Positions 2,824-11,462 of a stretch of 52,682 nucleotides of DNA are shown in pieces. The stretch lies in contig MFZK01000017.1 in assembly GCA_001789395.1 (NCBI GenBank), forward strand, positions 1-52,682, read 5' to 3'. Position numbers and translations under genes: made by a program. The first letter of the stretch is position 1; each line of letters begins with the position of its first letter. This DNA is from Candidatus Roizmanbacteria bacterium RIFCSPHIGHO2_02_FULL_37_13b. GTDB lineage: Bacteria > Patescibacteriota > Microgenomatia > UBA1406 > HO2-37-13b. The notes below the pieces were generated by a model. The model did no database searches. It was not told the origin of the DNA and saw only the letters and a list, made by a program, of their open reading frames with translations.

Positions 2824-3501
2824 TTATTTCCACCTGGATGCATGCTTTACCGTTTCTAAAGTCCTTTGATAATCCGCATGATTTTCAACGAAATCGCGAT
2901 AACTTTCTCTTTTATTATTAAATAGAGACATTACAGGATTAATATTGCATAATCTTTTTTCGCCAGCTATATATTCACGATAGGATGTCCAAGGATACTT
3001 ATTCAACGCAGATATATTATTTACTAACTTTGATGTATAAGGATTTAAATGAATATACCGTGATACGTGTTTTAGTTCTTCGTCATTATCAATCTGCTCT
3101 GATTTAAATTTAGTTAAAAAAATAGGTCCGAGTCCATCAGTTTCCAAATTAACATGTCGTGTAAACGAATTCATTACGAGACTGATGAAATGTGAAAGTC
3201 CCGAATCAATATTTTGCTTTAAAAGAAAATGATAATGCGTTGGCATTAAACAATAACTAAGTAACTCAACTCTAAAAAATTTCGCATCGCCAAGCTGAAT
3301 AATAATTCGATTACGATCAGATTCAGGTAAATCTAGAAAACGAGAAAAACTTAGACGAGCTTTCATTGATCGATAGTAGTGAATTATTTTAATAAAAAGA
3401 TGACAATTATGTATATCTAGGAATATCTTGTTCGAATGAATTGTTTTATTAAACACATGATAGATTCCATCGGTATATATTTTCTTTCTTCTTCCTGCCA
3501 T
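2824..3501 (-). CDS. REP-associated tyrosine transposase (Y1_Tnp/RAYT, IS200-like)
   Basis: A 225-residue HUH-type single-strand transposase. It opens with AGRRKKIY...GIYHVFNK, carries the histidine motif in MPTHYHFLLKQ, and has the likely catalytic tyrosine in SRYIHLNP; the C-terminal basic region follows. Members nick and join single-stranded DNA at hairpins, using a 5'-phosphotyrosine intermediate. A GTG at 3516 would add five residues (MENLD). I prefer the ATG at 3501 because RAYT proteins usually begin close to the M-A/G-R-x-x motif. Catalytic residues appear intact, so it may still be active. The gene is alone, with 100 nt or less to the flanking palindromes. Confidence 0.88.
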   Translation of the reverse strand: MAGRRKKIYTDGIYHVFNKTIHSNKIFLDIHNCHLFIKIIHYYRSMKARLSFSRFLDLPESDRNRIIIQLGDAKFFRVELLSYCLMPTHYHFLLKQNIDSGLSHFISLVMNSFTRHVNLETDGLGPIFLTKFKSEQIDNDEELKHVSRYIHLNPYTSKLVNNISALNKYPWTSYREYIAGEKRLCNINPVMSLFNNKRESYRDFVENHADYQRTLETVKHASRWK

Positions 3502-3584
3502 ATCTAAATTTTCCACAAAGTTACACTAAAGTCAAGATGAATATAAATAAATACAACGATTTAGTTTGTAATAACGCCAATTTC

Positions 3585-3797: not shown

Positions 3798-3827
3798 TTG
3801 ACAGGAAAAAAGCCTTATGTATACAAT
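3798..3827 (+). promoter_or_regulatory. Promoter P2, proximal to the first repeat protein
   Basis: TTGACA (3798-3803) with TATACA at 3820-3825 (16-nt spacer) or TACAAT at 3822-3827 (18-nt spacer). It would give a leader of about 55-60 nt. Confidence 0.6.
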
Positions 3828-3890: not shown

Positions 3891-5849
3891 ATGAAAAATA
3901 AACAACTTCTAGCTAAACTTATTTCAATTTTTTTGAGTTTCAATTTAATTTCCTTCAATGCATTACCGACTTTAATCTTCGCCGCTGATATGCCAAATAG
4001 CGACACCTTAAAACAACAAATCATCGATAAAGCGTCTACTAAAACAGATACTATAAATGCTGATACATCAAAAGCGACGGGTGCAGTCCCTACTCAACCA
4101 CCAGCAACAAACAGCAATACTACAAATACTGGTGATAATGTCAATAACACCACATCAACTAACAATGATCAAACCACTCAAGTGAATAACACCACTGATA
4201 CAACTGTTAATCAAGATATAAATGCAGAAGCTAACACCGGTGATAATACCACTGATGGAAATATTTCGATCTATGGAACTGGAGCTGGCGTAATCGATTC
4301 AGGAGATGCGACTATTAATGCAACGGGAGTTGTCAAAGCCGGAAACAACGAGACAACTATAATTGGTTCCGGAAATGGCGGTTCAGCCGGCAGTAATGTC
4401 GTAAATACCGGAAATAGTCTAACCACGTCAACTAACGCGAATAACTCAACAACAACGATGGTTAATAGTGGAAATACTACAGTAATTAATCAAAATTCCA
4501 ACCTTTATGCCAACACTGGTGGAAACAGATCTAGAGGGAATATCGCCATCGGTGGTGGACCAGCTGGTGCCGTCTATACCGGAAATGCTACAGTTAATAG
4601 TAATTTCTTAGTGACTGCTAATGGCAATGTCACGCTTATTGGCGGAACAGGCGGAAATGGACCAGGAAACGGTGCATCAATAATTCTTGCCAATTCAGGC
4701 AATCGTGGATATTTTTTCACCAGAGCAAATACTACTCACTTTATCTTAGTGAACAATAGTAATCGCGCTCTCGTATCTCAAACCTGTGGATATCCTGTTG
4801 CTCCCACCACCAATATGGTCGATGCATCATCATGCGCAGCGATTACGGGAGGAAATAATTCTTCGGCCAATATCGCCTTCGGAGGCGACGCTGGAAGAAT
4901 CACTACCGGAAACGCTACCGTGAACGTCACCATGGTCGCTGATGTCAACAACAATTCAACAACTATAAATGGTGCTGGTTCAGGTAGTAGTGCGAATTCC
5001 GACGTCCTTAACACGGGAAATGATGTAAATATAGATACTACATCTAATAATACATCCAATACCACTGTCAATAATCGTAATTCTGCAACAATTAATCAAA
5101 GAGTCAATGCAAAAGCGATTACCGGTAAAAATATCGCCAATGGAAATATTTCATTTGGCGGTTGTGCAGGATGTATCACAACAGGTGATGCCACTGTCAA
5201 TGTCACCCTTGTTGCAGATGTAAACAATAACAAAACCTTAATTGACAATGGTAGTCTAAATGGTAACGTTGGTGGTTCAAATTCACAAGTCGTCAATACA
5301 GGAGATGATGTAAAAATATCAACTGAAACCAATAACAATACTCAAATTACATCAAACAGCACTAATTTCTTAGATCTTGCCCAAAATGTATTTGGACGTG
5401 TCATAACAGGTTTTGTCAAAGCAATTGGAAATATAGGCAGAAGCGCCGGAATAATTGTCACTGGTGATGCAGAACTAAATGTTAATCAAAAAGTCACCGG
5501 TAATAATAATGAAACAGTCATAATCGATCCTGTTCAAATTGGTGGTGCAGAAACCGCAAACCCAACGCCAACTCCTCAACAAGAAGTTGCGCGTGGTGGT
5601 ACAACGGATCCTGTTGTCACCAATAATTCGACAACGCCATCTAATCCATCACCAAGCAATTCATCGACCAATTCTACTATCTCCTCTTCTTCAGTAGGTA
5701 GCGTATCGGATGGAGACATATTAGGAGCAGCAACAGCAATCCTGCCTGCATCAGGTCCGGAACTATTACTTTGGATTTTGGCAATCGCGTTGTCATCATT
5801 AATATTAGGAAATTATTTAAGAAATTATAAAGCGGAGAAATCCAGCTAA
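3891..5849 (+). CDS. Secreted surface repeat protein 1 with LPxTG-like C-terminal signal
   Basis: A 652-residue Asn/Thr/Gly-rich protein. It has a signal peptide (1 to about 31, ending LIFAA) and five degenerate repeats of about 95-105 residues starting at the (N/S)TG(D/N) motifs near 79, 172, 268, 374 and 469. Each unit goes from NTGDxV, through N-rich strands and a GNI-x-x-GG motif, to TGxATVN and ends NNxTxI. This regular glycine/asparagine pattern suggests a beta-solenoid, which is inference. A Pro/Ser/Thr linker (555-605) leads to LPASG (618-622), a hydrophobic helix and a tail with Arg and Lys: the layout of a sortase sorting signal, although LPASG differs from LPxTG at position 4. No sortase is in the window. 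It is the first of three paralogues. I know no named family; a structural or adhesive surface role is likely. Confidence 0.8.
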   Translation: MKNKQLLAKLISIFLSFNLISFNALPTLIFAADMPNSDTLKQQIIDKASTKTDTINADTSKATGAVPTQPPATNSNTTNTGDNVNNTTSTNNDQTTQVNNTTDTTVNQDINAEANTGDNTTDGNISIYGTGAGVIDSGDATINATGVVKAGNNETTIIGSGNGGSAGSNVVNTGNSLTTSTNANNSTTTMVNSGNTTVINQNSNLYANTGGNRSRGNIAIGGGPAGAVYTGNATVNSNFLVTANGNVTLIGGTGGNGPGNGASIILANSGNRGYFFTRANTTHFILVNNSNRALVSQTCGYPVAPTTNMVDASSCAAITGGNNSSANIAFGGDAGRITTGNATVNVTMVADVNNNSTTINGAGSGSSANSDVLNTGNDVNIDTTSNNTSNTTVNNRNSATINQRVNAKAITGKNIANGNISFGGCAGCITTGDATVNVTLVADVNNNKTLIDNGSLNGNVGGSNSQVVNTGDDVKISTETNNNTQITSNSTNFLDLAQNVFGRVITGFVKAIGNIGRSAGIIVTGDAELNVNQKVTGNNNETVIIDPVQIGGAETANPTPTPQQEVARGGTTDPVVTNNSTTPSNPSPSNSSTNSTISSSSVGSVSDGDILGAATAILPASGPELLLWILAIALSSLILGNYLRNYKAEKSS

Positions 5850-5884
5850 CTTAGCTGTTAGAAATTATTAAGTTCTCGAACGGA

Positions 5885-5894
5885 AAGGGGGTGA
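5885..5894 (+). promoter_or_regulatory. Strong ribosome site that fixes the start of repeat protein 2
   Basis: AAGGGGGTGA matches the full Shine-Dalgarno AAGGAGGTGA at nine of ten positions and lies 8 nt before the ATG at 5903. A GTG inside it (5891) is in frame, but it is part of the ribosome site, so 5903 is the better start. Confidence 0.8.
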
Positions 5895-5902
5895 AATATA
5901 AA

Positions 5903-7159
5903 ATGAGAAAAACAATTGCATCTTTAAGCTGCGCAGCGATTCTTTTATCAAACGCAGCAGGTGTTTTCGGTCAGACATATACTGATATCACCAATAGTGG
6001 ATCAGGTCTGGATGTAAAAAACACAACCAATACAACTACTGTTGTTACTATTGATCAAACCAATAGTGCCTTTGTCAAACAAGATTCAACCAATGTCGTA
6101 AAGACAGGTGATGTTGAAGTAAAAGGCAATATTGCAACTGGAACTGGATGTGGTACCTGTACCTTAGGTACAATAGGTGTCACAACCGGAGCCGGAACTG
6201 CAACGACAGTCCAAGAAGTTGATGTAAATAATAATACCGCCGCCGCAGAAGTAACAGGTGGCAGCGCTACATCTGTTCTTGGTTTAGTCAACACTGGAAA
6301 AGACGTCACTATTGATACTAGTGCCAATTCAACGACTGTTCTTACTGAACAACAAGCTAATAAAGCTTTTGTGTCTCAAAGTAGCATGAATCTTGTCGAT
6401 ACAGGAGGCGTCGTTGCCAGTAACAATATCGGCAATGTCGATGTAACCACTGGTCCAGGTACAGCAGTAACTGTACAAAAAATCAAGGCTAATGAAAATA
6501 CAGCTTTGGCAGTAGTTAAACCAGCCCCCACAACAGTTCTTCCACCTATGTGTGGATTAAATCCATGTGGTGCTGGCTTAGTCGGTGCTAATGGTGCTTA
6601 CACCATGATAACCAATACTGGTAATAAACTTATTGTCGACAATCACACAAACAATACCACCGTTTTAGGATTATTGCAAAGTAATTTGCTTTACTCCTCT
6701 CAAAAGGCTGGTAATTACGTCACAACAGGTGATGTCGTTGCTAAGAAAAATATTGGTGGTGTAGACATAACCACTGGTGCTGGTGTTGGATCAACCTTGA
6801 TGGAACTGGTTGCCAACAAAAACACTGCAGCCGCTTCAATCGGTTCAGATGAAATGCCTTTAGGAGGATCATTACTTCAACTTGTCAATACAGGTGTGAA
6901 TGCTAATGTTGATGCGAGCGCTAACGACACAACTGTTGTCGGTGGCAAACAAAACAACCTTTCATTCATATTTGAAAAGACCTGTAATTATGTCCAAACT
7001 GGTTTAGTTGGAGTTTTGAAGAATGTCGGCATGGTATCGACCCTTACTGGAGTAGGAGCTAGTGGAGTCGGTCAATCAACCACAGCTAATACCAATACGT
7101 TCTTGGTAACAAGTTCACCATTGGGATTACTTGGTTTATTGCTCGCTCTTACGCTTTAA
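5903..7159 (+). CDS. Secreted surface repeat protein 2
   Basis: A 418-residue paralogue of its neighbours, 53 nt downstream of repeat protein 1 with no terminator between, so probably co-transcribed. It has a signal peptide (about 1-23, ending VFG-Q) and four units of roughly 95-105 residues starting at ITNSGSGL (about 29), LVNTGKDV (127), ITNTGNKL (235) and LVNTGVNA (327). Each unit contains TGxVxxxxNIG and VTTGxGxxxTxxxxxxNxNTA signatures. It ends in a short hydrophobic run (LGLLGLLLALTL) without the basic tail of a transmembrane anchor, so the mode of attachment is unclear. Its strong ribosome site contrasts with the weak leader of repeat protein 1 and suggests higher expression. No enzymatic motif is seen; a structural role is inferred. 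Confidence 0.8.
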   Translation: MRKTIASLSCAAILLSNAAGVFGQTYTDITNSGSGLDVKNTTNTTTVVTIDQTNSAFVKQDSTNVVKTGDVEVKGNIATGTGCGTCTLGTIGVTTGAGTATTVQEVDVNNNTAAAEVTGGSATSVLGLVNTGKDVTIDTSANSTTVLTEQQANKAFVSQSSMNLVDTGGVVASNNIGNVDVTTGPGTAVTVQKIKANENTALAVVKPAPTTVLPPMCGLNPCGAGLVGANGAYTMITNTGNKLIVDNHTNNTTVLGLLQSNLLYSSQKAGNYVTTGDVVAKKNIGGVDITTGAGVGSTLMELVANKNTAAASIGSDEMPLGGSLLQLVNTGVNANVDASANDTTVVGGKQNNLSFIFEKTCNYVQTGLVGVLKNVGMVSTLTGVGASGVGQSTTANTNTFLVTSSPLGLLGLLLALTL

Positions 7160-7178
7160 TCTGATTTTTTGTGATCAT

Positions 7179-7198
7179 TTTTTTTAGATCTAAAAAAA
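7179..7198. other. Perfect AT palindrome after repeat protein 2
   Basis: Seven T, AGATCT, seven A: a 20-bp perfect palindrome 20 nt after the stop codon. It may be a weak terminator hairpin preceding the strong one downstream. Confidence 0.4.
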
Positions 7199-7223
7199 GA
7201 TTAAAGATAAGAGAAACAAAATA

Positions 7224-7256
7224 CCCGCCACGTCAAACGTGGCGGGATTTTGTTTT
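7224..7256. terminator. Rho-independent terminator
   Basis: CCCGCCACG (7224-7232), TCAAA loop, CGTGGCGGG (7238-7246), then ATTTTGTTTT. The flanking ACAAAAT/ATTTTGT extends the pairing, so it should work on both strands. It closes the transcript of the first two repeat proteins. Confidence 0.9.
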
Positions 7257-7364
7257 AGAGCAGATTTCGCTTTAGCTTGTTGCAGTATGATGACCTTAAA
7301 TACAGTTTAAGCTTTAAAGACGTTCATATATCTATATTGATACCCTTTTTTACTCTTTTATAGG

Positions 7365-7393
7365 TTGCATTTAAAATTTATATAATTTATAAT
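7365..7393 (+). promoter_or_regulatory. Promoter of repeat protein 3
   Basis: TTGCAT (7365-7370), 17-nt spacer, perfect TATAAT (7388-7393). Transcription should start near 7400, about 20 nt before the ATG. The short leader holds a GCCAA/TTGGC hairpin (7397-7411) and no obvious ribosome site. Confidence 0.7.
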
Positions 7394-7420
7394 ATCGCCA
7401 AGTTCTTTGGCTCTTAACAC

Positions 7421-9772
7421 ATGAATTCTATAGCTTTACGTATAATATTATCGGTTTTGATATGTTTTAATATAGTATTTTATCCTCTTTCAATATATTC
7501 ACAGGAAGTCGAACCAACACCAACTATAGATGAATCACCTACGCCTACGACGGTTGTTGAAAGTACGCCAACACCATTTTCAGAATTCGTTGACCTATCA
7601 CCTACTCCGGTTGATGAGATAACGCCAATAGTTGATATCACTCCGACCCCGACAATACCACTTGACGCTGATCTACAAATCGTCAATAGTGGCGATGATA
7701 CAAGCGTAAGTGCGACAGACAGCAGCAGTCTAACTGTAAATATAGAAAGCACCAATAGCGCTCAAGTAGATAATTCTGTGAATCATGACGTAAATACGGG
7801 TGATAACATTTCCGACAATCCTGTCTCAAACTCAGATGTCAAAACAGGCGAGGCTAAATCAGATGTTGTTATAGTTAATGAAGTCAATCAAGCTATAGTC
7901 GGAGGTGAAATCACTCCTGTTTTAGTCAATATCACAGAGGATCATCAAGGAGAGATAGATTTATCGATGATTCAACCATGTCTTGATAAATTATTCGGAT
8001 CAGAAGGTCAACAATCATATATCGTCAATACAGGTGACAATGTTGACATTCAAAATGATAAAAAGGAAACTACGGATACAACTATCACTGTAAATAACGA
8101 CGCGACAATTAATAATGATGTTAAGGTAAAGATCAACACCGGATCAAACGATGTCAACGGATTAAATGCTTCCCTTACTACAGGCGATGCTCAATCAAAT
8201 GTATTTATCTATAATGGAGCAAATACAACGCTTGTAGGTGATTGTAACATTTTTACAATAATCAATCTTTTTAAAGATCAAAATGGAAACATCATTCTTC
8301 CCTATGAACTTGGTATGACCGAGCTTGATTCCGGGTTGCCGGCTATATACTACAAATTAGATGTCACAAATTCCGGTGATAATCTTGATATAAATCAACA
8401 ATCATCAACTAATGATTCAACAACAATTGATACTCAAAACAATGCTGATGTCACAAGCAATGTCAATTCTGACGTCAATACCGGCGGTAATCAGATTTCA
8501 GGTATCTGGAATGGACTCATTTCGACGGGAAATGCCACTTCAACAGTCAAAATGGTTGATGCCATCAACACGACAATTGTCGGTGACCGATGGATGATGC
8601 TAAAAATTAATATTTTGGGTAATTGGTCGGGCAATATCATCGGCTTTGATGGCCCATATATTCGAGGTGAGAACTACATTATTCTTTTTTTCAGAATTCC
8701 TGCGAGTGATGGATCGGGCAACGCGCAATCAACTAATATCGTAAACAGTGGCGATAATTTATCGCTTGATCAAATAAATGAATATTCAAACACTCTTAAA
8801 GTCAATACAAATAATACCGCATCCGTGACAAACAATGTCGACGTCACCGCAAATAGCGGAAATAACCAAGTGTCAGGCATAAATACTTCGCTTAAAACAG
8901 GAGATGCCACCTCAAATATCAGCATTTTCAATTTCTTGAATACGACCATAATCGGCAATAATTGGTACTTTGCCATAATAAATATCTTTGATAACTTTGT
9001 TGGCGATATAATCTTTCCTCGTCCTGACCTTGCTATAGCAAAATTTGTTGATAAAACTACTGCCTTGAAAAATGATCAACTGACATATACGATCAAATAT
9101 GCTAATATAGGGCGATACTATGCCAATAAAACGGTTTTGACTGATGTATTACCTCAAGATGTAGAATTCGTCACATCTTTACCTGCTCCAACCATTAATG
9201 GAAATAACTTATCTTTTTCTTTAGGACGACTAAAACCAGGATCTGTCGGTGAAATTTCGATTCAGGTAAAAGTAAAAGATATTGATGCATCATTTGATTT
9301 GATAAACAATGCCATAATCAAGACTGATACACCGGAATCAGATAAATCAAATAATAGTTCATCTGCCGTGACTAAGATAAGTTTCGCACCACCGCAAATA
9401 CAAACAAATGACAATGCCAATAATAATAATTCAGGTAATTCTTCAAACCAAAATAATCAATCGACGTCTACACCATCTAGTCAATCTAGTACGACTAATA
9501 TCATTCCGACACCAACTGAGATGCCGGTAATTGATACAAAAATCCCGGCTCCTTTATCTTACATCCGTTATTTATCAAAAACTAAGGAAAATCCGGCAGA
9601 AATCAATCAAGGATCAATTTTGGCTATTTCGGATAAAAACAATTGCGGGTTTATGTGTATGTTACGCAGTCTATTTTATAAGTACTGGATAATACCTGTG
9701 TTGTCATTGCTTTTGGTACCTTTAATTAGAAAAAGATACAAACTTAAAAAAATTACCTCCCGAAAAACCTGA
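7421..9772 (+). CDS. Secreted surface repeat protein 3 with DUF11 domain and C-terminal anchor
   Basis: A 783-residue protein. It has a signal peptide (1 to about 28), a Thr/Pro-rich segment with repeated PTP motifs (31-78), and four units of about 113-125 residues starting at (I/V)xN(S/T)GD near 87, 201, 315 and 440. Each unit carries NTGxN and (K/S)TG(D/E/N)A motifs and ends NxTxIG or similar. A DUF11-type beta-sandwich follows (about 536-655, DLAIAKFVDKTTAL to NNSSSAV), then an Asn/Ser/Thr linker, a transmembrane helix (about 755-769) and a strongly basic tail. DUF11 domains are typical of large cell-surface proteins. The repeats are homologous in pattern to those of the two genes before it, but this gene has its own promoter after a terminator. 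Its 3' end overlaps the convergent small secreted gene by 20 nt. Function unknown. Confidence 0.82.
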   Translation: MNSIALRIILSVLICFNIVFYPLSIYSQEVEPTPTIDESPTPTTVVESTPTPFSEFVDLSPTPVDEITPIVDITPTPTIPLDADLQIVNSGDDTSVSATDSSSLTVNIESTNSAQVDNSVNHDVNTGDNISDNPVSNSDVKTGEAKSDVVIVNEVNQAIVGGEITPVLVNITEDHQGEIDLSMIQPCLDKLFGSEGQQSYIVNTGDNVDIQNDKKETTDTTITVNNDATINNDVKVKINTGSNDVNGLNASLTTGDAQSNVFIYNGANTTLVGDCNIFTIINLFKDQNGNIILPYELGMTELDSGLPAIYYKLDVTNSGDNLDINQQSSTNDSTTIDTQNNADVTSNVNSDVNTGGNQISGIWNGLISTGNATSTVKMVDAINTTIVGDRWMMLKINILGNWSGNIIGFDGPYIRGENYIILFFRIPASDGSGNAQSTNIVNSGDNLSLDQINEYSNTLKVNTNNTASVTNNVDVTANSGNNQVSGINTSLKTGDATSNISIFNFLNTTIIGNNWYFAIINIFDNFVGDIIFPRPDLAIAKFVDKTTALKNDQLTYTIKYANIGRYYANKTVLTDVLPQDVEFVTSLPAPTINGNNLSFSLGRLKPGSVGEISIQVKVKDIDASFDLINNAIIKTDTPESDKSNNSSSAVTKISFAPPQIQTNDNANNNNSGNSSNQNNQSTSTPSSQSSTTNIIPTPTEMPVIDTKIPAPLSYIRYLSKTKENPAEINQGSILAISDKNNCGFMCMLRSLFYKYWIIPVLSLLLVPLIRKRYKLKKITSRKT

Positions 9773-10214
9773 ACTTTAACCGATTGAATATACTTTGAAT
9801 TTGATTGTGAATATAATCACTTAAACTCGTAGTCTTAATTTTGTCTATATATGAGATAGTATCTGTGTTTAAAACGATATTATTTTTTTTTGATTCGTCG
9901 GTTGCTTGGGTTTGCGTTGTATAATTTCCGTTCTTATATTCAACAGAGTATAACCCGGGCTTATCACTTTCAACAATTTTTTTTTGACCATTAACATCGA
10001 CTTCTATTCTTGTTTTGGTTGTACCTGATTCTTTTTTTTCAACTTTTCCATTATTTTCGATAGTTACACTCTGACTACTTTGAGAATTTACATTAGTTTG
10101 AACTTGTACCTGTCCACTGCCTTGCTGAGTTACTTTTGTCTCAATTTTATTTGTCGCAGTTTCTGAAACCAGAAACAGAGGTAATAAAAAAATTGGTGAT
10201 AGCTGCTTTTTCAT
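9753..10214 (-). CDS. Small secreted Asn/Gln/Thr-rich protein directly after tRNA-Val
   Basis: The chosen start gives 153 residues. A signal-peptide-like N-terminus (KKQLSPIFLLPLFLVS) is followed by a hydrophilic body rich in Q, N, T, K and V (TKVTQQGSGQVQVQTN...) and a basic C-terminus (FNRLKFRFFGR). No family is recognised. The frame extends upstream into the tRNA gene, but that part is tRNA sequence, so the ATG at 10214 is the real start. Only two bases separate the tRNA 3' end (10217) from this ATG, and there is no usable ribosome site outside the tRNA. After tRNA 3' processing the mRNA would be nearly leaderless. It faces, and slightly overlaps, repeat protein 3, and may belong to the same surface system. 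Confidence 0.65.
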   Translation of the reverse strand: MKKQLSPIFLLPLFLVSETATNKIETKVTQQGSGQVQVQTNVNSQSSQSVTIENNGKVEKKESGTTKTRIEVDVNGQKKIVESDKPGLYSVEYKNGNYTTQTQATDESKKNNIVLNTDTISYIDKIKTTSLSDYIHNQIQSIFNRLKFRFFGR

Positions 10215-10216
10215 AG

Positions 10217-10288
10217 TGGCCGCTGGAGGATTTGAACCTCCGACATCTGCAATGTGAATGCAGCGCTCTACCACTGAGCTAAACGGCC
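10217..10288 (-). tRNA. tRNA-Val (anticodon CAC)
   Basis: A complete 72-nt cloverleaf on the minus strand. The acceptor is GGCCGTT/AGCGGCC with one G-U pair and discriminator A; the D-arm is AGCTC...GAGC. The anticodon stem CTGCA/TGCAG holds loop TTCACAT, so the anticodon is CAC for GUG codons. The T-arm is GGAGG-TTCAAAT-CCTCC. No 3' CCA is encoded. A secreted-protein ATG follows 2 nt after the discriminator base. Confidence 0.95.
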
Positions 10289-10853: not shown

Positions 10854-11462
10854 ATGGATCTTTTAAAAAAGGTTATCGAGTTTGTCATGGATATTCTGGA
10901 AACTGTGGTCTTTGTCGGCTCACTTTTCATCGTCAGCTACCTCTTTTTAATTGCTCCAAACCAGGTCAAAGGTGCTTCGATGGAACCAACTTTTGATTCG
11001 GGTGATTATATATTAACAAGCAAAATTTCTTATAAATTTTCTCATCCAAAAAAAGGAGATATTATCGTATTTGCATCCTTGAGAAATAAGGACATTGATT
11101 ATATAAAAAGAATTATTGGCATCCCGGGAGATAGAATAGTTATTAAAGATAATGAAGTTTACTTAAATGGCAATCTGATCAAAGAAGACTACATATCAGC
11201 AAAAACAACTATATTTGAAAGCGGTTTTATGAAGAATAACGTCGAGGTTACCGTACCGGAAGATTATTTATATGTCATGGGCGACAATCGACCTCGTTCC
11301 TCAGACTCAAGAGATTTTGGATTTATTCCAGCGACCAATGTCATTGGAAAAGTCATTTATCGCTATTTTCCTTTTAATAAATTGGGCGGAGTCAAAAACC
11401 CATTTCAAAGTATAATATTGCAGTATTTATTATCTGACAAACAAATCATTAATCTTTTTTAA
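10854..11462 (+). CDS. lepB: Signal peptidase I
   Basis: A 202-residue type I signal peptidase. One N-terminal membrane anchor (about 15-35) is followed by the catalytic serine S42 in GASMEPT and the general-base lysine K85 in YIKRIIG. The conserved GDNRPRSSDSRDFG box follows. It cleaves Sec signal peptides on the outer face of the membrane, so the four secreted proteins immediately upstream are obvious substrates. Only one membrane segment is present, as in Gram-positive-type enzymes. It has its own promoter 8 nt before the ATG. Its 3' end overlaps the convergent ParB-like gene by 33 nt; the residues after about 190 are less conserved and may be a tail. Confidence 0.95.
   Translation: MDLLKKVIEFVMDILETVVFVGSLFIVSYLFLIAPNQVKGASMEPTFDSGDYILTSKISYKFSHPKKGDIIVFASLRNKDIDYIKRIIGIPGDRIVIKDNEVYLNGNLIKEDYISAKTTIFESGFMKNNVEVTVPEDYLYVMGDNRPRSSDSRDFGFIPATNVIGKVIYRYFPFNKLGGVKNPFQSIILQYLLSDKQIINLF

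Follow-up and report, generated by a model that had tools for sequence, protein, structure and literature searches.

In the model for Streptomyces, the long sortase-anchored chaplins ChpA-C scaffold the short free chaplins ChpD-H (PMC7766987). In Fap, the subunits FapB and FapC consist of imperfect repeats with variable linkers and a conserved core of Asn/Gln and hydrophobic residues (PMC12392863). Within the Microgenomates, the sortase family fam000526 is described as near-ubiquitous, in a passage that names no substrates (PMC6744442). We analyzed a stretch of 52,682 nucleotides, hereafter the window, from Candidatus Roizmanbacteria bacterium RIFCSPHIGHO2_02_FULL_37_13b, which is contig 17 of a 1.16 Mb genome; those of its relatives that have names belong to Candidatus Roizmanbacteria and other Microgenomates. 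Three consecutive open reading frames (ORFs) on its forward strand, genes A, B, and C, probably encode a hitherto undescribed cell-surface fiber or coat system of Patescibacteria. The reading that we favor, and consider reasonably likely, is a multicomponent surface structure in which free B would stack on wall-bound A (or its counterpart E in other orders) and on membrane-bound C. Ultrasmall Patescibacteria are believed to spend their lives attached to other cells, and to our knowledge little is known about their surface beyond type IV pili.

The cassette resembles chaplins in having one repeat common to sortase-anchored, multi-unit scaffold proteins and free subunits, with polymerization at the surface proposed. 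A single hidden Markov model (HMM) of the unit matches both free B and LPxTG-type A/E. However, the cassette unit is longer (about 80 residues), there is a third partner with a transmembrane anchor and DUF11, a sortase gene lies within the cluster in many genomes, and the phylum is a different one; the chaplin domain is absent among the Pfam matches of A, B, C, and their orthologues. With Fap, the cassette has in common imperfect repeats with variable linkers, Asn/Gln with a hydrophobic core, and a predicted nucleator and major subunit that share the repeat, but its repeat spans 80 rather than 39 residues and its envelope is Gram-positive-like, with sortase. We saw no fapA-F operon, and a profile search of PDB sequences (FapC included) at E<=10 returned an unrelated lipoprotein as the sole match. 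Curli (CsgA/CsgB) likewise combine Q/N-rich alternating strands, an NxAxVxQ half-motif, and a major plus an anchored subunit, but an outer membrane is not expected in these bacteria, and Curlin_rpt (PF07012) gave zero matches at E<=1 in A, B, C, or 32 orthologues. Like LPXTG surface proteins, A and E carry a signal peptide and an LPxTG-type tripartite C terminus; unlike them, they belong to a set whose main subunit has no sorting signal. By sequence the cassette lies outside chaplins, Fap, and curli, yet it would work like chaplins or Fap. The sortases considered below come from the same group as fam000526, for which A/E is a candidate substrate.

One repeat unit in three proteins with different C termini

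The cassette and its parts lie in the window as follows.

3891..5849, + strand: gene A, 652 aa; a signal peptide precedes 5 repeat units, a P/N/S-rich linker, and an LPASG sorting-type C terminus; predicted wall-anchored partner
4122..5522, + strand: repeat units A1-A5 at 4122-4361, 4398-4643, 4689-4970, 5004-5243, and 5289-5522 (unit HMM, E 6e-19 to 2e-26)
5742..5756, + strand: LPASG motif of A, read from the sequence; a hydrophobic segment and then a basic tail come next
5903..7159, + strand: gene B, 418 aa; 4 units after a signal peptide, with a bare hydrophobic tail and no anchor; predicted major subunit
5987..7108, + strand: repeat units B1-B4 at 5987-6244, 6287-6508, 6608-6832, and 6884-7108 (unit HMM, E 5e-12 to 3e-16)
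7112..7156, + strand: hydrophobic C-terminal tail of B, SSPLGLLGLLLALTL, read from the sequence
7421..9772, + strand: gene C, 783 aa; after the signal peptide, a PT-rich stretch, 4 units joined by IN-F-G linkers, DUF11, and a transmembrane anchor with basic tail
7679..8953, + strand: repeat units C1-C4 at 7679-7891, 8021-8236, 8363-8581, and 8738-8953 (unit HMM, E 3e-12 to 1e-15)
9026..9367, + strand: DUF11 domain of C (Pfam PF01345, E 1.5e-16, 61.1 bits against a cut-off of 24.6)

A preliminary description of this DNA, made from the letters alone, had proposed three tandem genes of 652, 418, and 783 residues built from 13 divergent units. The ORFs are indeed there, and A, B, and C share one repeat unit. 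The unit HMM has 80 positions, with the consensus IVNTGDNVNVSTSSNSTTNVTVNNTNTATITQTVNANANTGNNTASRNISGGGAGVITTGNATVNVNMSADANTNTTLIG, and finds five units in A, four in B, and four in C, the expected 13, each at E <= 5e-12. Unit starts are spaced by about 91 to 125 residues, and in loci of the A-B-C type the distance from the first to the second TG signpost is exactly 36 residues in 62 of 74 units. An HMM built from A orthologues alone scored window B at 58.0 bits and window C at 58.9 bits; on 600 shuffled sequences, its best score was -14.3. The earlier reader could not name the repeat, and we cannot place it in a family either: it has no match in Pfam, NCBIfam, PHROGs, or PDB sequences (32 orthologues were also searched against Pfam), the only known domain being the DUF11 of C, and in a literature search no paper found named the repeat or the cassette.

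Each protein opens with a signal-peptide-like stretch, and each ends differently, as had been described: A in LPASG, a hydrophobic segment, and a basic tail, B in a bare hydrophobic stretch, and C in DUF11, a transmembrane segment, and a basic tail. Gene A has the full layout of a sortase-anchored protein, from signal peptide through LPxTG-type motif and hydrophobic segment to basic tail, with LPATG, LPTTG, or LPDTG in its orthologues where the window has LPASG. A curated LPXTG anchor HMM exceeds its cut-off in E of relatives (L110/L122) but not in window A. In 63 of 73 B proteins, the final 10 residues include at least four of LIVFMW, and 66 of 73 have no K/R there. Unlike window C with its DUF11, the C proteins of other orders (loci L109 and L110) gave zero Pfam matches.

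Translation signals, gene order, and the sortase link

The following putative expression signals accompany the three genes.

5884..5894, + strand: Shine-Dalgarno sequence of B, AAAGGGGGTGA, near-perfect (-15.0 kcal/mol with the anti-Shine-Dalgarno sequence), eight bases 5' of ATG 5903, conserved over loci
7224..7246, + strand: strong terminator-like hairpin of the intrinsic type, between B and C
3798..3827, + strand: promoter-like site 5' of A, TTGACA-18-TACAAT (matches the consensus only; the region has no excess of such sites over chance)
7357..7386, + strand: promoter-like site 5' of C, TTTATA-18-TATAAT (consensus match only, with the same limit)

We take ATG 5903 as the start of B; GTG 5891, which opens a longer ORF, sits within the Shine-Dalgarno sequence. 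The strong ribosome site that had been noted on the second gene is conserved over loci and is no local accident. The median pairing energy of B is -15.1 kcal/mol, that of C -1.2, and that of A/E -2.1; in 62 of 64 loci B has a stronger site than C, and in 36 of 37 a stronger one than A/E. Energies of -13 kcal/mol or lower occur in 66 of 74 B genes; among 480 further ORFs from the stretches that hold them, the share is 1.9%. Since a near-perfect site on B contrasts with weak ones on A/E and C, we predict that B is the major subunit, with A and C in minor, anchored roles; B looks like the bulk product. The suggestion of separate promoters needs correction. Only 53 nt separate the A stop from the B ATG, and A and B are probably on one transcript; promoter-like sites in the region are at chance level (32 found, 26.9 +/- 4.4 expected). 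The hairpin at 7224-7246 and the promoter-like site before C do fit separate control of C.

The same set recurs across the class and beyond. Of 373 class genomes, 95, or about a quarter, match the B profile at E<=1e-8 (75 of the 299 that are of good quality), as do 30 of 380 genomes sampled over the phylum, 18 of these 30 being outside the class. In other orders of the class the genes run B (about 420 aa, free), C (about 730 aa, transmembrane), E (1 to 3 units, LPxTG-type or similar anchor), and then sortase; E is our name for the LPxTG-type partner that is A here, and since size and anchor were the criteria for assigning it, the assignment may in some loci be wrong. In 52 of the 54 class loci with both genes, C comes directly 3' of B and on its strand, with a median gap of 105 bp. 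Among 58 class loci chosen irrespective of sortase presence, 34 have a sortase on the same strand no more than 2.5 kb 3' of C, and 5 more end at a contig or stretch edge. The chance expectation of a sortase near the locus, from 4 sortases in a 1.16 Mb genome, is about 0.4% per locus. Both the Sortase and the LPXTG_anchor HMMs exceed their curated cut-offs in L110/L122. In other classes, B is found with transmembrane-anchored C, and a small LPxxG-type E is present in about half. A conserved sortase neighborhood had been put forward as a check on the proposal that one core is attached in different ways; relatives have it, and the recurrence of free B, transmembrane-anchored C, and LPxTG-anchored A/E in dozens of loci from this and other classes supports the proposal. 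Closer to the window, A, B, and C keep identical order and orientation in two genomes (G006 and G030); in G024 the C that accompanies A and B is shorter, in G002 the trio is split over two contigs, and in G008 A and B are present. A orthologues occur in these five and in others, but occurrence is patchy: of 57 near relatives, only 5 or 6 have A or B.

In most class loci a dedicated sortase adjoins the set, and one subunit has LPxTG; both would fit a sortase-polymerized pilus, its subunits linked covalently by the adjoining enzyme. However, the major subunit B has neither a sorting motif nor a basic tail and C has a plain transmembrane anchor, so that sortase can fix only A/E; the sortases also fall below the cut-off for pilus class C. 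We regard such a pilus as very improbable. An S-layer-like lattice of B, tied to wall and membrane through A and C, would agree with a single free subunit that is highly translated (judged from Shine-Dalgarno strength) and has anchored partners, and with the conservation of B and C together. But neither SLH nor another known S-layer family was found in Pfam or NCBIfam, B is small (300-450 aa), N/T/G-rich, and internally repetitive, and only about one-quarter of class genomes carry it, and we consider the lattice improbable as well. A phage tail-fiber origin was rejected: no relatives of the repeat proteins were found among viral contigs, plasmids, or PHROGs.

Further proteins accompany the class-type loci. 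Two small membrane or exported proteins are encoded 5' of B in most of them (L122 5312-5971, 4774-5253, and equivalents); one, X, ends in FPINDTDKN..VGEI and the other is PT-rich and ends in EIRVEIS, with no Pfam match over cut-off. Both probably belong to the class-type system as well. Many class loci also encode, past the sortase and on the other strand, a fourth repeat protein, which has 2 units and about 200 aa, for example at L122 11205-11804 (- strand) and L113 3678-4262. The B proteins of other orders (e.g., L122 6415-7692) have a conserved tail, PE-F-FNF-L-L--LL-LLGL, that runs up to the stop codon and is absent in the other classes looked at. This tail is unlike a membrane anchor and is perhaps a docking or assembly signal.

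Predicted fold and assembly

We then considered how the unit may fold. In a coevolution analysis of 808 units, 17 of the 30 top coupled pairs fell on i+j = 92-96 (1.5 expected), a band that joins a leg at 22-46 to a leg at 49-70; in 20 shuffled alignments, the best such band held at most 9 of the top 30. The coupled positions (26-67, 30-65, 32-63, 34-61, 36-57, and 22-70) point inward and are hydrophobic or Asn/Gln. Outward pairs, despite greater variability, are barely coupled (mean 0.19, compared to 1.32 for inward pairs), and mutual information concurs; a ranking by excess mutual information is consistent with the arch band but contaminated by clade signals. Since inward pairs are coupled and outward ones hardly, we favor a beta-arch, that is, one solenoid or cross-beta layer, over a hydrogen-bonded hairpin. 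These data suggest that the unit is a beta-arch with a hydrophobic, Asn/Gln-lined side-chain core.

The repeats also resemble one another within genomes. After correction for composition, units from the same genome are more alike between B and C (z 10.3), B and E (z 9.5), and C and E (z 7.1), and the effect persists within the other orders of the class alone (z 10.1, 7.0, and 7.0, respectively). An ancient shared repeat alone predicts equal likeness across genomes, so this excess points to concerted evolution, and it fits a shared assembly interface.

This similarity bears on the possibility that A, B, and C are separate adhesins, their repeat serving as a rigid stalk or a surface-shown binding domain with no copolymerization. 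Repeats with an LPxTG or transmembrane anchor and DUF11 are a common layout of fibrillar adhesins, that layout is present here, and these bacteria are thought to attach to hosts. Yet paralogue units track each other within genomes, a fixed B-C-E set is retained over the class, domain-library searches revealed no separate binding domain in A or B, and B is unanchored although, by its ribosome site, it is the most strongly translated of the three, which would be odd for an adhesin. Independent adhesins seem to us unlikely, if less so than a lattice.

In the fiber or coat that we favor instead, B would be an abundant, secreted, unanchored building block. A (E in other orders) would present the same units covalently fixed to the wall by sortase, and C would hold them in the membrane. 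Each unit of about 80 residues would form one beta-arch layer with an Ala/Val/Ile core and Asn/Gln pointing inward, and layers of B may stack on one another and on the units of A and C. A would then act as a wall-bound and C as a membrane-bound nucleator for polymerization of B into an amyloid-like or solenoid coat. Given the lifestyle reported for these bacteria, such a structure might serve as a protective coat or in attachment to host cells.

Several results weigh against this model. Just 3 pairs from the direct-coupling analysis top the best shuffled score, and the case for the arch lies in the pattern, not in single pairs. In-register coupling reaches 4.7 standard deviations between adjacent units but also 4.1 between next-but-one units; this near equality points to concerted evolution and not contact, and we rejected adjacent-unit coupling as proof of stacking. 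AlphaFold2 models are weak, with a predicted local distance difference test score (pLDDT) of 40 for whole B and 7 orthologues and 63 for two units (41 fragments). Foldseek gave no significant match: CsgA came first for whole B (E 0.06, TM-score 0.05) and the best lead was FapC 9nqd (E 0.044, TM-score 0.09), both from low-pLDDT models and both weak, although in line with the fiber or coat reading. These and the matches to giant-virus membrane proteins are not significant, and we set the models aside as too weak. The likeness of units within genomes could stem from gene conversion or from fresh or repeated duplication instead of contact. Finally, the window's own cassette has no adjoining sortase; the four sortases of its genome lie elsewhere.

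The loci provide a set with predicted roles, namely a major B, wall-anchored A/E, membrane-anchored C, and, in many genomes, a dedicated sortase. These four genes make the sortase question in Microgenomates directly testable, with A/E as the candidate substrate, and the repeat HMM would annotate many hypothetical proteins. A broader proposal, which we hold tentatively and with some doubt, is a hitherto undescribed, phylum-wide, functional-amyloid-like coat in which free B polymerizes on partners anchored by a dedicated sortase to the wall and by a transmembrane segment to the membrane. If true, this coat would be a main substrate system of the near-ubiquitous Microgenomates sortases.

Neighboring genes and related loci

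Two further genes lie beside the cassette.

9753..10214, - strand: gene D, 153 aa (start at ATG 10214); its small product, exported or in the membrane, has the core VNGexKxxxSxxPG; conserved next to C
10854..11462, + strand: lepB, signal peptidase I (Pfam PF10502, E 4e-48), next to the cassette in L055, L057, and L059

ATG 10214 is the likely start of gene D because the start of the longer ORF overlaps a tRNA-Val gene (10216-10288). Homologues of D adjoin C in L055, L057, L059, L061, and L066 and lie near the set in L118. The protein has no Pfam match and is kept beside C even where A and B are absent (L061 and L066). A conserved lepB neighborhood, another check proposed in the preliminary description, was found in the three related genomes, which also share the ParB-HTH gene, rodA, ileS, and partly rplU. 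Just 5' of the cassette, at 2824-3516 on the - strand, is an IS200-like Y1 transposase (PF01797, E 2e-5), possibly relevant to the patchy distribution of the cassette.

On contig 3 of the window's own genome (about 94.3-95.5 kb; L146 4270-5487), a sortase gene overlaps that of a 226-aa PT/S-rich, LPxTG-like protein whose GLAETG-type C terminus resembles that of E; this protein has zero repeat units. In three loci of the same order as the window (L061, L063, and L066), which have no A/B, a C-like protein of 700-970 aa lies beside a small 2-unit protein, an arrangement that appears to be a reduced version of the system.

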